NCBI GenBank assembly: GCA_947630585.1
Contig: CANRIE010000108.1
Span: 1-36,148 of the forward strand
Length of the DNA: 36,148 bases
From: an uncultured Bacilli bacterium
GTDB lineage: Bacteria; Bacillota_I; Bacilli_A; RF39; UBA660
Direction: 5' to 3'
The notes beneath the pieces were generated by a model. It was not told the origin of the DNA. It did no database searches and saw only the letters and a list, made by a program, of their open reading frames with translations. Numbering within the stretch: the stretch's first letter is position 1; each line of letters opens with the position of its first letter. Positions 13,458 through 36,148 of the stretch are shown in pieces. A program made the position numbers and the translations under genes.

Positions 13458-14657
13458 ATGAATAAGTTAATTAATAAATCTCTTGTTTTCTTTTTATTAT
13501 TGTTTTCATGTTTAAATGTTAAAGCTTTAGAAATAGATCAAGGTTTTAATAATATCTTTATTCCAACAATTTATTATGCTATTCCAATTATCTGTTTAAT
13601 TATATCTTTAATAATACTTGGTATATGTAAAATTAAAAGTCGAAAAAATATTGGTAAGGAAATAATACCACTTGAGTTTTATCAACCAGATAGTTTAAAC
13701 AGTTTAGATGTTGGAAGATTATATAAAGGTGAAGCAAACGAAAAAGATGTTATTTCATTACTTATATATTTAGCAAATAAAGGCTATCTTAAAATATCAG
13801 ATAAGGATAGTAAAGAGAATTTTAAAATAATAAAAATTAAAGATTATGATGGTAATAACAATGAAGAAAAATTATTTTTAGATGGTTTATTTAAAAATGC
13901 TATAAAAAATGAAGAAGGGGAGGAATTTATTACTGTAACTAAATTAAAATATAGGTTTTATAGTACAATTCATAATATCTTAATTAATGTAAATAACGTT
14001 TTTAATGTTCAAAAACTAATTAAAAAAGATTATTCTAAACAAGAATTAAATTTAAAGAAAGTTATTCTTTATTTAATAATTATAGTAATATTATCTTTGA
14101 TATTAATACCAATTTTAAATGGAGGTATAGTAATAATTATAAAAAATATTAGTTATTTAATAGGATTAATTCTTGGAATAACAATAGTTATTTTGATGAT
14201 ATATATAAGAAAAATTATTAAAATTGAGCCTAAACGAACTGATTATGGTAGGAAAATGTTTGCTAAAATAAATGGATTTAAAATGTTTTTAGAAACTGCT
14301 GGGAAGGATAAATTAGAAAAACTAGTTAGTGAAAATCCAAGGTATTTCTATGATATATTACCATTTGTTTATGTTCTTGGAGTATCAAATAAATGGATAA
14401 AGAATTTTGAATACTTAAAATTACAAAGTCCAACTTGGTATTTAGGATTATCTGATTTTAAAGATAAAATTAATAGTACTTTTGAAATTAGTACGAAATA
14501 TATGACATTTAAGTCTAATCTTTATTGCGACAGTTTATCAAGTCTTGAAACAAGTTCTTCTGGTTCAAGTGATTCCGGTGGTGGAATATCAGGAGGAGGC
14601 TCCGGAGGTGGGGTGGAGGCTCATGGTAGAAAGAGGTTTTATGAAAAAATTAATTAA
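13458..14657 (+). CDS. DUF2207-family paralog 1: lacks the N-terminal exported domain; frameshifted Gly-rich C-terminus
   Basis: Signal peptide then directly the TM/cytoplasmic region shared with the next two genes (IEFYxPxxxNSLxVGxLYKG, NPRYFYDILPFVYVLGVSNKWIKNFE); tail reads GGGSGGGVEAHGRKRFYEKIN instead of ...GGSW. Confidence 0.8.
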   Translation: MNKLINKSLVFFLLLFSCLNVKALEIDQGFNNIFIPTIYYAIPIICLIISLIILGICKIKSRKNIGKEIIPLEFYQPDSLNSLDVGRLYKGEANEKDVISLLIYLANKGYLKISDKDSKENFKIIKIKDYDGNNNEEKLFLDGLFKNAIKNEEGEEFITVTKLKYRFYSTIHNILINVNNVFNVQKLIKKDYSKQELNLKKVILYLIIIVILSLILIPILNGGIVIIIKNISYLIGLILGITIVILMIYIRKIIKIEPKRTDYGRKMFAKINGFKMFLETAGKDKLEKLVSENPRYFYDILPFVYVLGVSNKWIKNFEYLKLQSPTWYLGLSDFKDKINSTFEISTKYMTFKSNLYCDSLSSLETSSSGSSDSGGGISGGGSGGGVEAHGRKRFYEKIN

Positions 14658-17145
14658 TAGATTGATTGCTATAGCAGTTATTATAGCAAGCCTTCTAGTT
14701 TTAAATGTTAAAGCTTATGAATATGATTATGAGATAACGAAATTTGATATAGAAATGATAGTAAACTCTGATAACTCATTTGATATTAAAGAAACAATAG
14801 GAGTATATTACAATGTACCAAAGCATGGTATTTATAGAACAATTCCTTTAGAAAATAATATTAAAAGAGCAGATAATACTACTTCTAAAACTTATGCTAT
14901 GGTTGAAAATGTAAGTGTTAATCAAAAATATACAGCAAATAAAGAAGGAAATTATGAGTATGTAATTAGAATTGGATCTGAAGATGAAACTTTAACTGGT
15001 AGTCAAGAATATGTAATTAATTATAAATATGTTTTAAATTATGCTAATGAAGAAGGTTTTGATGAGTTATATTATAATATAATCGGAACTGATTGGGATA
15101 CAACGATAAAAAATGTAACTTTTAAAATCACGATGCCAAAAGATTTTGATAAAAGTAAATTAGGATTTTCTAAAGGAAAATCTGGTTCAACTAATAGTAC
15201 AGGAATTACTTATCAAGTAGATGGAAATATTATAACAGGAAGTTTTGATGGAACATTAAAACCCTCAGAAGGCTTAACAGTAAGGTTAGAATTACCTAAA
15301 GGTTATTTTGAATCTAATAATGATTATATAAATGATAGTAGATATGAATATGTAATAAATAACTATGATATAGAAATGAAAGTAAATCTTGATAATACAT
15401 TTGATATTAAAGAAACAATTGATACCTATTTCAATCAAGAAAAACATGGTATCTATAGAAAACTACCTTTAAGAAATGAAGTTGAAAGATTAGATGGTTC
15501 TAAAACTATAAATCGAGCTAAAGTAACGAATTTAAAAGTTAATCAGGAATATACAACTAGTAAAAAAGACAATTATTTTAGAATTCAAATAGGAAATCCT
15601 AATAAAGTAATTAAAGGAGAAAATAAATATATAATTAATTATAAATATAATTTAGGAAGTGATAAAAATAATAAATATGATGAGTTATATTATAATATAA
15701 TTGGAACCGAATGGGATACAAAAATAAAGAATGTAACTTTTAAAATAACAATGCCTAAAAGCTTTGATGAAAGTAAATTAGGTTTTGCTAAAGGGGAAGA
15801 TGGTTCAACCGATAGTAGAGGCATAACTTATCAAGTAGATGGAAATGTTATAACAGGGAGTTACAATAAATCTTTAGCACCATATGAAGGATTAACAATT
15901 AGATTAGAGTTACCTGAAGGATATTTTGAAGGAGTTGACTTAATTGTTGATTTAAATATTTTACTAATGTTTATTATTCCAATTGCTAGCCTAGTTATTT
16001 CAATCTTTTTATGGTATAAATTTGGAATAGATGATAAAGTAATTGAAACAATTGAATTTTATCCACCTAAAGGCTATAATAGTTTAGAAGTTGGATATTT
16101 ATATAAAGGTATTGCTGAAAATGAAGATGTAATCTCTTTGCTAATATATCTTGCTAATAAAGGGTATATTAAAATAGCAGAAACTGAAGCAAAATCATTA
16201 TTTACATCAGTAAAAAGTTTTGAAATAACTAAATTAAAAGAATATGATGGTGATAATATAAATGAAAAATTATTTTTTAAAGGATTATTTAAAACCGGTG
16301 ATAAAGTAACAGAAAGTGATTTAAGGAATAGTTTTTATGTTACAATGAATGAGATATTAGGAAATATTAATACAAGTGTAAATAATAACCAAATTTTTGA
16401 TAAGGAAACATCTAAAAAAACAATTATTATAGTAATTCTAATGATTATTACCTTTATAACGATGATATTAGTACCAAGTATGGATTATTCATCAGGTATT
16501 ATTAGTATAATAATGACTATATTTACATGTTTATTCCTTTTACCTTTTTATGCTATTGGGTTATTTGCTAAATTACCTTTACTATTTAGAATTGTTTGGT
16601 TAGGGTTTATGATATTCTTGTCCTCATTTTTCGTTTTTGAGACAACAATTTGGCAAGCAATTCAAAATGATTATATATATTTATTTGCAGTAATAGTAGA
16701 TTTATTAAGTTTAATAGGTATGGGAGTAGCTTGTAAATTAATGGCTAAACGGACTAAATATGGACTAGAAATGTTAGGGAAAATAAAAGGATTTAAAACA
16801 TTTTTAGAAACGGCAGAAAAAGAAAAATTAGAGGCTTTAGTCTTAGAAAATCCAACTTATTTTTATGATATCTTGCCTTACACATATGTTCTTGATGTAT
16901 CTAATAAATGGATGGAAAAATTTGAAAGTATTGCCGTTGAACCTCCAACTTGGTATGATAGTTCTGATACTTTTGATATAGTAACGTTCTCTTCATTTGT
17001 AAGTACAACTATTGCATCAGCTACATCTAGTATGTCATCTAGTCCTTCATCATCAAGTGATAGTGATTCTGGAGGCGGTGGTGGCTCATCTGGTGGAGGT
17101 TCATCAGGAGGCGGCTCCGGAGGCGGAGGCGGTGGCTCATGGTAG
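14641..17145 (+). CDS. DUF2207-family paralog 2 with two tandem N-terminal domains and SGGGSGGGGGGSW tail
   Basis: ATG at 14641 (MKKLINRLIAIAVIIASLLVLNVKAYEYDYEITKF) follows SD agaaagagg; domain units YEITKFDIEMIVNSDNSFDIKETI... and YVINNYDIEMKVNLDNTFDIKETI...; ORF-track start 14545 lies inside the preceding gene. Confidence 0.88.
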   Translation: MKKLINRLIAIAVIIASLLVLNVKAYEYDYEITKFDIEMIVNSDNSFDIKETIGVYYNVPKHGIYRTIPLENNIKRADNTTSKTYAMVENVSVNQKYTANKEGNYEYVIRIGSEDETLTGSQEYVINYKYVLNYANEEGFDELYYNIIGTDWDTTIKNVTFKITMPKDFDKSKLGFSKGKSGSTNSTGITYQVDGNIITGSFDGTLKPSEGLTVRLELPKGYFESNNDYINDSRYEYVINNYDIEMKVNLDNTFDIKETIDTYFNQEKHGIYRKLPLRNEVERLDGSKTINRAKVTNLKVNQEYTTSKKDNYFRIQIGNPNKVIKGENKYIINYKYNLGSDKNNKYDELYYNIIGTEWDTKIKNVTFKITMPKSFDESKLGFAKGEDGSTDSRGITYQVDGNVITGSYNKSLAPYEGLTIRLELPEGYFEGVDLIVDLNILLMFIIPIASLVISIFLWYKFGIDDKVIETIEFYPPKGYNSLEVGYLYKGIAENEDVISLLIYLANKGYIKIAETEAKSLFTSVKSFEITKLKEYDGDNINEKLFFKGLFKTGDKVTESDLRNSFYVTMNEILGNINTSVNNNQIFDKETSKKTIIIVILMIITFITMILVPSMDYSSGIISIIMTIFTCLFLLPFYAIGLFAKLPLLFRIVWLGFMIFLSSFFVFETTIWQAIQNDYIYLFAVIVDLLSLIGMGVACKLMAKRTKYGLEMLGKIKGFKTFLETAEKEKLEALVLENPTYFYDILPYTYVLDVSNKWMEKFESIAVEPPTWYDSSDTFDIVTFSSFVSTTIASATSSMSSSPSSSSDSDSGGGGGSSGGGSSGGGSGGGGGGSW

Positions 17146-17157
17146 AAAGGAGTTAAA

Positions 17158-19002
17158 ATGAAAAAAATAAAAAATATAATATTAATACTTGTAATAATGC
17201 TATTACCAAGTTTAAATGTTAAAGCCTATGATTATGAAATAACAAAATTTGATATTGAAATGGTTGTTAACCCTGATAATTCTTTTGATATAAAAGAAAC
17301 TATTGATACCTATTTTTATATAAAAAAACATGGTATTTATAGAATATTACCTTTAAAAAATGAAGTTAAAAGATTAGATGGGACAACTTCTACTAATCGA
17401 GCCAAAATAACTAATATAAATGTTAATAATCAGTATACAACTTATAAAACAGGTAATGACTTTGAAATTAGAATTGGAAATCCTGATTATGAGTATACTG
17501 GATCATCACAATATGTAATTAGTTATCGATATAATATAGGAAATGATAAAAATAAGTATTTTGATGAATTATATTACAATTTAGTTGGTACAAGATGGGA
17601 TGATACAACGATTTCTAATGTAACTTTTAAAATAACAATGCCTAAAAGTTTTGATAAAAGTAAATTAGGATTTTCAGCAGGTTCTTATGGGACGATAGGA
17701 ACAAGAAAAGTTAACTATCAAGTAAATGGAAATGTTATAACAGGAAGTTATAATGGTACTTTAAATCCTCGTGAAGGATTAACAATAAGATTGGAACTAC
17801 CTGATGGTTATTTTATCAAGCAAAACACTGATATAAAATATTTAATATGTTTTATATTTCCTATTATTATGTTAATAATATCAGGATTTATTTGGTATAT
17901 ATATGGTCGTGATGATAAGGTAGTTGAAACTATAGAATTTTATCCACCAGAAGGTAGAAATAGTTTAGAAATAGGTTTTCTTTATAAAGGAAAAGCTAAC
18001 AAAATTGATGTGATTTCTTTATTAATATATCTTGCTAATAAGGGTTATATCAAAATTCAAGAATATCAAGAAAAGAAAATGTTTTTTAAAGTAGATACTT
18101 TTAAAATTATTAAATTAAAAGAGTATAATGGCAATAATAAGGAAGAAAAATTATTCTTAGAAGGTCTATTTAAAAAATCTAAAACTGAAAATGGAATTCA
18201 ATATGTAACAAAAGATGATTTATATAATAAGTTTTATAAAACAATAACTAAGATTTTAAATAACGTTAATTCAAAAGAAAATAAAAATTTAATTTATGAA
18301 AAGAAAACTAAATTGTCATTTATAATAATTTTATTTTATATTATATCTATATTATTATCTTTTATTCCGTTTATAGATACTTATACGTTAGAAATTGAAT
18401 TTATATGTTCGGCACTGCCTATGGGAGCGGGAATGTATTGTTTAGCATTTGTAATAACTAAAGATAATATAAGAATAAGGGCTAAGATTAATGCAAGTTG
18501 TATATATATTTCTGAAATATTAGCAGGATTATCACTTGCAGTAATGCACTTAGGTGAATTGCCCGAATTTATTTTTATATTTATAATTGGTCATCTTTCA
18601 GCATTTGGTATAATTATATTTTATACTTTATTAGATAAAAGAAATAAATATGGAACTGAAATATTAGGAAAAATAAAAGGATTTAAGACTTTCTTAGAAA
18701 CAGCTGAAAAAGACAAATTAGAATCATTAGTATTAGAAAATCCAACTTATTTTTATGATATTTTACCATTTACTTATGTTCTTAGAGTATCAGATAAATG
18801 GATAAAGAAATTTGAAAGTATTTCAATGGAAGCTCCTAATTGGTATGATAGTAATAGTGCTTTTGATATAATAAGATTTAATACTTTCATCCATACTACT
18901 ATGATTGTTGCTTCAAGTACAATATCTTCAAGTTCTGGTGGCTCATCAGGAGGAGGATCATCAGGAGGTGGCTCTGGAGGTGGAGGCGGCGGCTCATGGT
19001 AA
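17158..19002 (+). CDS. DUF2207-family paralog 3 with a single N-terminal domain and SGGGSGGGGGGSW tail
   Basis: Signal peptide, one YEITKFDIEMVVNPDNSFDIKETIDTYF unit, same TM/cytoplasmic region and tail. Confidence 0.88.
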   Translation: MKKIKNIILILVIMLLPSLNVKAYDYEITKFDIEMVVNPDNSFDIKETIDTYFYIKKHGIYRILPLKNEVKRLDGTTSTNRAKITNINVNNQYTTYKTGNDFEIRIGNPDYEYTGSSQYVISYRYNIGNDKNKYFDELYYNLVGTRWDDTTISNVTFKITMPKSFDKSKLGFSAGSYGTIGTRKVNYQVNGNVITGSYNGTLNPREGLTIRLELPDGYFIKQNTDIKYLICFIFPIIMLIISGFIWYIYGRDDKVVETIEFYPPEGRNSLEIGFLYKGKANKIDVISLLIYLANKGYIKIQEYQEKKMFFKVDTFKIIKLKEYNGNNKEEKLFLEGLFKKSKTENGIQYVTKDDLYNKFYKTITKILNNVNSKENKNLIYEKKTKLSFIIILFYIISILLSFIPFIDTYTLEIEFICSALPMGAGMYCLAFVITKDNIRIRAKINASCIYISEILAGLSLAVMHLGELPEFIFIFIIGHLSAFGIIIFYTLLDKRNKYGTEILGKIKGFKTFLETAEKDKLESLVLENPTYFYDILPFTYVLRVSDKWIKKFESISMEAPNWYDSNSAFDIIRFNTFIHTTMIVASSTISSSSGGSSGGGSSGGGSGGGGGGSW

Positions 19003-34224: not shown

Positions 34225-34233
34225 TAGTTAATT

Positions 34234-34265
34234 AGATTAGTGTAGAAATATGCTAATCTTTTTCT
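34234..34265 (+). terminator. Intrinsic terminator after nrdG
   Basis: AGATTAG-tgtagaaatatg-CTAATCT followed by ttttct. Confidence 0.65.
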
Positions 34266-34280
34266 GATTTAAATAAACAT

Positions 34281-34311
34281 TTAATCAAAACCTTAATCAA
34301 ATTTAATCAAA
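34281..34311. repeat. Three direct copies of TTAATCAAA
   Basis: At 34281-34289, 34293-34301 and 34303-34311, spaced 12 and 10 bp, just upstream of a TATAAT at 34339-34344. Confidence 0.6.
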
Positions 34312-34380
34312 TAGTTTCAAAATTTTTACTTTGGTAGTATAATAATTAATGAAACAAAACATGTGAAAGTGGGTGAAATA

Positions 34381-35460
34381 ATGAAAATTAATTGTGATGG
34401 TATTATTCATAATCCACTTGGAGGAGCCTCATATATGTTTGAAAAAGAAATAATACCATATATTTTAAGGCAATATACAAAAAATATAATAAAAATTAGT
34501 GTTGGTGCTCAACCTAATTCTTCACCACATTTTGGTACCTTAGAAACAATAGCACTATCCTTTGGATTAGCATCAAATATTATGAAATATGATAAAAACA
34601 AGAAAGTTATAATTTTATATGAGGTAATTGATTCAGCACCAAGTGAAACAACAATAATAAATGGAATAAAATACCAAAAAAGTTTAAAATATACTGGAAA
34701 AATAAATGAATTTTTTAATGAATATTTAGAAATTTTAAATTATTATAAAAGTTTAACTGGTATTGATTATGAGATAAGGTATCAAAAGGAGTTTAATAGT
34801 CAACCTGAAATATCTAATATTATTAAAAAAATCATTAAAAATAAAGAATATATTAGTCCACGACTTGATCCGAAATATAATAAAATAAGAATTAGAATGC
34901 CTTGCCCAAAATGTGGACTAACTGATAAAAATAGTATTTTAAACAAATATGAAAATAATAGGATAATATTTAATTGTCCTATACATGGCGAGTATTATGC
35001 AAATTTGGATAAAGACACATCTATGCTAGAATATAATTCTCCATACCGAAATTTAATTAGATGTATATATTATACATTAGTTAACAATAATTCCAATTAC
35101 AATTATCAAATTCTTAGAGTAACAGGAAGTGATTATGCAGGATTTTATCAAGAGGAAATGAGATATAAATTGGCTTCTTATTTAGGATATCCTGCACATA
35201 CATTATCAATGATATTTTATGCACCACTTGTATTAGACTGGTCAGGAGCAAAAATGTCAAAATCTTTGTATGTTAAGGAAGGAGCTTATTCAGATATTCC
35301 AGCTGCTTTTATTAATTATAAATATTTAAAAAAAGCATATGGATTAGAAGGTTTAAAAAAATTGTATGATATTATTTGTAATTGGTTTGAAAAACCTTAT
35401 ATGCTTTTTAGACATTATACAATTTATTATTTTATAAAGGAGTTTGAAGAAAATGAATAA
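34381..35460 (+). CDS. Compact class I aminoacyl-tRNA-synthetase-like (LysRS-I-like) protein without recognisable anticodon-binding domain
   Basis: HIGH-like SSPHFGTLET, KMSKS in WSGAKMSKSLYV, zinc-type CPKCG...CPIHGEYY insert; ATG 34381 (track start GTG 34363). Confidence 0.7.
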   Translation: MKINCDGIIHNPLGGASYMFEKEIIPYILRQYTKNIIKISVGAQPNSSPHFGTLETIALSFGLASNIMKYDKNKKVIILYEVIDSAPSETTIINGIKYQKSLKYTGKINEFFNEYLEILNYYKSLTGIDYEIRYQKEFNSQPEISNIIKKIIKNKEYISPRLDPKYNKIRIRMPCPKCGLTDKNSILNKYENNRIIFNCPIHGEYYANLDKDTSMLEYNSPYRNLIRCIYYTLVNNNSNYNYQILRVTGSDYAGFYQEEMRYKLASYLGYPAHTLSMIFYAPLVLDWSGAKMSKSLYVKEGAYSDIPAAFINYKYLKKAYGLEGLKKLYDIICNWFEKPYMLFRHYTIYYFIKEFEENE

Positions 35461-35872
35461 TGCAATTTTTGTTAGTATTAATCCTATATCAATAGATAAG
35501 ATTGAAAAGAAAATTAAAACATATGAATTTAGAAATTATATTCCTAAAAAAAAATTTAATAAACTTTATGTGTATGTTACTTCTCCAATTTGTGAATTAA
35601 AATACATAATACAAATAGCAAATATAATTAGTACACCTCAAAAAATAGAAATTGGAGGAGATGGGAATGAATTGTTCAATGATGGAAAGAAATCAAAATA
35701 CGCATATCAAATTAGTAAAGTTTATAAATTAACTATTCCAATTAAATTATCTTCTTTAAAAGAAAAATTTAATTTTACTCCTCCACAAAGTTATGCATAC
35801 GATGAAAAATATCATGATCTTTCAATTTTTTTGGCTAAGAGTGAAAAAAAATTAATATGGGAAAGACAATAA
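35453..35872 (+). CDS. ASCH/PUA-like domain protein
   Basis: AIFVSINPISIDKIEKKIKTYEFRNYIPKKKFNKLYVYVTSPICELKYIIQIANII; ATG 35453 overlaps upstream stop (ATGAATAA), SD aaggag (track start TTG 35444). Confidence 0.65.
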   Translation: MNNAIFVSINPISIDKIEKKIKTYEFRNYIPKKKFNKLYVYVTSPICELKYIIQIANIISTPQKIEIGGDGNELFNDGKKSKYAYQISKVYKLTIPIKLSSLKEKFNFTPPQSYAYDEKYHDLSIFLAKSEKKLIWERQ

Positions 35873-36148
35873 TTTATAATTAAAATTATTATAATAATAA
35901 AATATACTTTTTTTTAGAAAAGCTGAATAATTCAATTCAATCTAAAATAATTGCTATTGGAAAAAGATGATGTTGCAAGTAATAGTATGAGTGATGCTAT
36001 GCTTCTGATGTAAATGAGGAATTTTGAAAAATTAGTCGGGTAATAATCCTGACAGCGAAAATATGCTAAAATTTTAACAAATCAGATTAGTAATAAGCGT
36101 GTTAATACGCTAATTTAGCCATTTTTTGCAAAAAAAATAAATACATAT

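Follow-up and report, generated by a model that had tools for sequence, protein, structure and literature searches.

We have identified a two-gene module in which a stripped-down class I aminoacyl-tRNA synthetase (aaRS)-like enzyme is coupled with an ASCH protein, which has a nucleotide/RNA-binding fold, and the pair may constitute an amino-acid-activating ligase that acts on a nucleotide- or RNA-type acceptor with the assistance of ASCH, a reading to which we give a probability of about 45%. The module was found in a stretch of 36,148 nucleotides from an uncultured Bacilli bacterium, which is called the window as a whole. Three features together suggest that an amino acid is activated and then passed to RNA or to a nucleotide-like acceptor: namely, the intact core with no anticodon-reading domain, the ASCH partner, which can occupy the C-terminal side in fusions, and the recurrent nucleotide-handling neighbors of the related genes.

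Gene Pair and Conserved Motifs

As the original prediction described, the window contains an aaRS-like CDS followed by an ASCH CDS with the expected motifs (Table 1), and the stop codon of the former indeed overlaps with the start of the latter, by 8 nt (ATGAATAA). The CDS of the enzyme was correctly described, except that the predicted length of 360 residues counted the stop codon and is actually 359. The HIGH-like motif is PHFG (residues 49–52, within QPNSSPHFGT), the KMSKS signature appears in SGAKMSKS (AKMSKS at 290–295), and zinc-type residues are located in CPKCG (175–179) and CPIHG (199–203). These motifs had been read in advance as PHFG, AKMSKS, and CPxCG/CPxHG, and the following residues turned out to be invariant in 13 diverse homologues: Q44, N46, P49, H50, G52, and T53; C175, C178, C199, H202, and G203; and G249, D251, G289, K291, and K294. 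The class I signatures and the CPxCG/CPxHG residues were unchanged across Bacilli, Actinobacteria, and Pantoea.

Table 1. Positions of the module and its surrounding features in the window
Feature	Position	Strand	Remark
aaRS-like CDS, class I LysRS-like catalytic core	34381..35460	+	ATG start; 359 aa + stop
ASCH protein CDS, ZmASCH/PDC-M11B type	35453..35872	+	139 aa
Left edge of acquired segment	34266..34279		synteny with two sister genomes stops
Likely promoter, TTCAAA-16-TATAAT	34316..34343	+	TATAAT kept in relatives
Three TTAATCAAA direct repeats	34281..34312		real; not conserved in close relatives

Both genes of the pair are under purifying selection, as a comparison of the window with its relative L017 gave dN/dS ratios of 0.05 (aaRS-like gene) and 0.20 (ASCH gene). 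A decaying fragment of lysyl-tRNA synthetase (LysRS) with a chance neighbor would match the short length of the enzyme and also the frameshifts in several of its relatives (including L078), which may be assembly errors in these draft metagenome-assembled genomes. These dN/dS ratios, the invariant catalytic residues, and the pairing and fusions across phyla described below nonetheless speak against such decay, and this reading, already disfavored by selection and linkage, is highly improbable.

Fold of the aaRS-like Protein and Its Relation to Class I LysRS

An AlphaFold2 model of the aaRS-like protein built with 14 related sequences (pLDDT 84.7, pTM 0.86) was searched with Foldseek, and the best match in PDB was class I LysRS (1irx; E 4.8e-10, probability 1.00), with the alignment covering about 305 columns of the 507-residue chain. 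Because the TM-score was moderate, we claim a LysRS-I-like class I core and not a close kinship. The aaRS-like protein as modeled is a LysRS-I-like class I catalytic core that ends right after the core; indeed, the C-terminal anticodon-binding helical domain of LysRS-I is absent from the 359-residue enzyme when compared with 1irx, in agreement with the core-only architecture proposed originally. The enzyme also resembles class I LysRS (PF01921, TIGR00467, 1irx) in its HIGH and KMSKS signatures and in a collinear match to PF01921, which was below the threshold (12.8 bits against the cut-off of 27). It differs from class I LysRS, however, not only in the missing domain but also in falling below every family cut-off, in its mobile and sporadic occurrence, and in its partnership with ASCH. 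Neither the enzyme nor the ASCH protein of the window, each searched alone, reached any Pfam or NCBIfam cut-off.

In its own genome, TIGR00467 gave no match at E<=0.001, and neither there nor in the sampled Bacilli did any class I LysRS exceed the cut-off. A complete LysRS encoded elsewhere in the genome, for which the original prediction had proposed a search, was found to be of class II (532 bits). An end-to-end match to a characterized synthetase, named in advance as evidence to the contrary, was not obtained; the sole alignment of that kind was with the uncharacterized PHROG 35625 profile (enzyme residues 21–347 to profile positions 20–352 of 371, E 8e-8), and no characterized member of this enzyme family was found. 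PHROG 35625 (“tRNA synthetase”) and PHROG 19935 (“RNA-binding protein”) of the Streptomyces phages Picard and Mojorita represent the same family, also with an overlapping ASCH gene, but they exist as annotations only, and the Bacilli copies carry another ASCH subfamily.

Several aaRS paralogues with no anticodon-binding domain are known, such as GluQ-RS, MshC, and EpmA, which share with our enzyme the bare catalytic core and use alternative acceptors; these are, however, housekeeping or pathway-specific enzymes that derive from other synthetases and are not known to have an ASCH partner. Also, a PyrN structure was listed among the Foldseek matches of our model. PyrN has a MetRS-like core with a cupin domain, either fused or separate, and couples Glu to N6-hydroxy-lysine without tRNA (PMC8664883), which indicates that such cores can take a small-molecule acceptor in place of tRNA. 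The hydrazine synthetases of the PyrN/Spb40 type are thus similar to our pair in having a stripped aaRS core, a fused or separate partner, a place in biosynthetic clusters, and a small-molecule acceptor, but they combine a MetRS-like core with a zinc cupin, whereas a LysRS-I-like core is combined with ASCH here. Indeed, no cupin was recognized beside the enzyme in the window, and the best fold match was LysRS-I, so that the enzyme is not of the PyrN type.

The ASCH Partner

The predicted ASCH/PUA-like identity of the second ORF was substantiated by the matches of the window protein to the PADLOC candidate PDC-M11B (E 1.3e-11) and of its family profile to ZmASCH in PDB (E 1e-12), while the window sequence alone hit ZmASCH (5gus) only weakly in phmmer (E 0.026). 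ZmASCH, a single-stranded RNA nuclease, and PDC-M11B are thus the closest ASCH relatives. Tyr47, Gln127, and Ser128 of ZmASCH have conserved equivalents in our ASCH family, but the equivalent of Lys53 is not conserved, and no aaRS partner is known for ZmASCH. In the family alignment, K22, E25, and R27 are nearly invariant and form a K-x-x-E-x-R motif. YqfB, an N4-acetylcytidine amidohydrolase with the ASCH fold, shares the Lys and Arg of its K-x-x-T-x-R motif with this family, and an amidase of the YqfB type (Lys21, Thr24, and Arg26) was considered as a candidate; nonetheless, it was rejected, since the essential nucleophile Thr24 is replaced by Glu, and ASCH is unlikely to act as an N4-acylcytosine amidase. 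The role in RNA recognition originally suggested for ASCH was not supported and stays conjectural. The structure of ASCH alone predicted from one sequence was too poor for use (pLDDT 48).

The PUA-like fold of ASCH and its conserved equivalents of Tyr47, Gln127, and Ser128, together with the lost anticodon domain, are also what would be expected if the enzyme, like GluQ-RS, acted on a cellular tRNA bound by ASCH and placed an amino acid onto one of its modified bases. GluQ-RS was, however, not among the 50 best fold matches of the model, and the best one was LysRS-I and not a GluRS; the family is, furthermore, mobile and sporadic (9 of the 289 genomes in the order). A search of the surroundings of the module also gave no T-box, no dedicated tRNA, and no further RNA family; the only tRNA genes, near L015, L018, L076, and L077, are ordinary ones. 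We therefore regard a GluQ-RS-like function as improbable.

A second ASCH gene (ASCH2), which encodes 232–233 residues and apparently two ASCH units, was noticed downstream of the first one at four loci (L018, L019, L021, and L027); no remnant of ASCH2 follows the window copy, and a single ASCH related to ASCH2 is found elsewhere in the same genome near ftsA/ftsZ-like ORFs (L101). One ORF of another genome (G129, L026:8665-9630) joins, in a single frame, an ASCH2-like N-terminus and the C-terminal domain of a carbamoyltransferase; it adjoins NUDIX and AAA_17 genes, with only a remnant of the upstream aaRS-like gene. Both this locus and L074 continue into a uvrB-like gene, an indication that they share an insertion site.

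Distribution and Linkage of the Two Genes

Relatives of the enzyme occur in the order of the source genome (9 of 289 genomes) and in its family (16 of 389), some of them as fragments or marginal matches, and were also found on genome contigs. Their occurrence is sporadic and extends from Bacilli to plasmids of Macrococcus and Streptomyces, the phages Picard and Mojorita, other viral contigs, and one Pantoea plasmid, where the sampling outside Bacilli consisted of plasmids, phages, and viral contigs. The clade including the window (with L017, L018, L019, and L003) was recovered in both trees.

ASCH was in the same operon as the enzyme at every locus examined except for Pantoea. It is encoded downstream of the enzyme in the window group and Macrococcus, upstream in L007, L024, L076, and L077, several genes upstream in L078, and a few genes downstream in L022/L023, and an ATGA overlap of the two genes was seen in all of the 14 two-gene actinobacterial copies checked. 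In two lineages, furthermore, ASCH is fused in frame to the C-terminus of the enzyme with no internal stop: five actinobacterial copies (L014, L015, L016, L036, and L038) and one from Bacilli (L025). Independent copies are somewhat fewer than the loci, because L039 is Picard itself (the same record length and sequence as L050) and L043 and L044 look identical. The genomic survey of co-occurrence proposed with the original prediction thus revealed that the pairing is kept across phyla, even as fusions, and the enzyme and ASCH may tentatively be regarded as one functional unit. The reverse linkage is weaker; at eight loci, ASCH of the window type has no accompanying enzyme. Such solo ASCH genes are more common in genomes carrying the module (4 of 8, compared with 4 of 286; Fisher p 1.5e-5, with kinship ignored).

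This enrichment is among the observations that would suit a defense or toxin–antitoxin module, in which the enzyme would make a toxic aminoacylated product or alter tRNA, with ASCH as an antidote, sensor, or effector, so as to protect the mobile element or its host from phages. Indeed, the copy of the temperate phage Picard is flanked by regulators on one side and by the serine integrase on the other, many copies are on plasmids, and ASCH matches PDC-M11B; related ASCH domains are also found in predicted PIN-GNAT-EVE toxin–antitoxin operons (PMC7641849). One copy (L025) is next to a recombinase, a helicase-nuclease, and a DUF5655 gene, and another (L021) is next to a PHP/ATPase gene and, as judged by eye, a YhcG-like ORF. 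At two further loci (L097 and L098), where neighbors were read by eye from ORFs as in part of L021, solo ASCH adjoins AbiE-like toxin–antitoxin ORFs, and it even appears fused to an AbiEii-like ORF in L098. Also, the aaRS frame is broken with ASCH intact at five loci; this difference of five to none is, however, not significant given the gene lengths and the draft assemblies. A toxin would not usually be fused in frame to a labile antitoxin, no PADLOC model matched the enzyme in contrast to ASCH, and copies with 51–53% identity reside inside a nucleoside biosynthesis cluster. A defense role is the strongest rival to the ligase proposed here, and we consider it rather unlikely.

Acquisition of the Module and Its Upstream Region

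Synteny of the window with two sister genomes, G046 and G084, extends to positions 34266 and 34279, respectively, beyond which these genomes continue with other genes. Acquisition of the module at a variable site behind nrdDG is therefore most likely, consistent with the predicted horizontal transfer. The genes at this insertion site differ from one sister genome to the other. The end of the contig, at 36148, is 3' of the ASCH gene, and the mapped boundary of the acquired segment is its left edge. Among the relatives, L019 adjoins a split tyrosine integrase. The position of the module behind a terminator of nrdDG is also borne out, in that a stem-loop with a T-run is visible by eye at around 34233–34263, although the terminator scan gave no flag there.

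The module likely has its own promoter, as proposed. Matches to the promoter consensus are by themselves no more than expected by chance, and it is the recurrence of the TATAAT box in relatives, some 40 bp ahead of the ATG codon of the aaRS-like gene, that carries the assignment. The upstream direct repeats are real as three copies of TTAATCAAA, but they are absent from the closest relatives and are therefore probably not part of the module. Apart from the module, three tandem paralogous membrane proteins with Gly/Ser-rich tails were noticed at 13458–19002 of the window.

Gene Neighborhoods and the Proposed Mechanism

The copies with 51–53% identity were found in two Bacilli genomes of about 1 Mb (G063 and G143; L022:475-11563 and L023), inside a cytosine-nucleoside cluster of the blasticidin/mildiomycin type. 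The genes are ordered as DegT, BlsE-like radical SAM (TIGR04466, 2e-49), DegT, a 311-residue protein, APH, cytosylglucuronate (CGA) synthase (TIGR04467, 6e-49), CMP-N-glycosidase-like (E 1e-13 to 4jen), aaRS-like, MazG-like, ABC-F, and ASCH; the 311-residue protein is Fem/GNAT-like by eye only and is a candidate for a second aminoacyl-transfer gene. Among the ORFs of the window, none was recognized as CGA synthase, BlsE-like radical SAM, or CMP hydrolase. The steps in mildiomycin biosynthesis that match those of the L022/L023 cluster have been assigned to MilB, MilC, MilD, and MilG (PMC11784345). A nine-gene operon in another genome (G848, L078:627-7671) encodes NUDIX, thymidylate-kinase-like, ASCH, three methyltransferase-like, AlaDH, AlkZ-like glycosylase, and aaRS-like proteins and may serve to make a small molecule that damages DNA. 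The enzyme is accompanied by a methyltransferase, LOG, a transporter, and HAM1 with no ASCH on the Pantoea plasmid, and by an MFS exporter, a regulator, two ATP-grasp proteins, and ASCH on the Macrococcus plasmids, while the pair is stand-alone cargo in the window group, Streptomyces plasmids, and phages.

Leucylation is known to inactivate blasticidin S, and the pair might similarly inactivate a nucleoside-like drug by aminoacylation and spread alone as a resistance cassette. The ABC-F ribosome-protection gene flanked by the pair in L022/L023, the APH gene upstream, and the common stand-alone copies on Streptomyces plasmids would be in line with such self-resistance. The acceptor is not apparent from the fold and motifs, however, and no single drug fits because the contexts differ, with ABC-F in one operon and an AlkZ-like gene in another; self-resistance is accordingly an improbable account.

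In the amino-acid ligase that we favor, the LysRS-I-derived core would activate an amino acid with ATP to form an aminoacyl-adenylate and pass it to an acceptor that is presumed to be non-canonical, given the loss of the anticodon-reading domain. The acceptor would most likely be a small molecule of the nucleotide/nucleoside type or a (modified) base in RNA, and ASCH, often fused or overlapping at the C-terminal side where the anticodon domain would sit, may recognize or process it. Such a unit could be a portable tool that is recruited into operons for nucleoside-type or other small molecules or is carried alone on prophages and plasmids. Nonetheless, the many stand-alone copies on mobile elements without pathway genes suit defense or resistance, and the solo ASCH genes at eight loci, the missing Thr24, and the candidate aminoacyl-transfer gene in L022/L023 also count against the ligase.

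Conclusions

We found no open-access paper that describes a LysRS-I-derived synthetase paralogue without the anticodon domain or that mentions an ASCH domain and a tRNA synthetase together. Synthetase paralogues lacking the anticodon domain have repeatedly given new chemistry, as in mycothiol, queuosine glutamylation, and N–N bond formation, and the enzyme described here probably attaches amino acids to an acceptor that is not ordinary tRNA. More open to doubt is the wider proposal that a LysRS-I core and ASCH make up a new two-component family of amino-acid ligases, which would conjugate amino acids to nucleotides or nucleobases in the making of nucleoside-type antibiotics and, when carried alone, for mobile immunity or resistance. 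As a mobile family with one conserved partner, it offers a direct handle on the function of the ASCH domain and also directs attention to an unexplored gene cluster of the cytosine-nucleoside type in Bacilli with small genomes.
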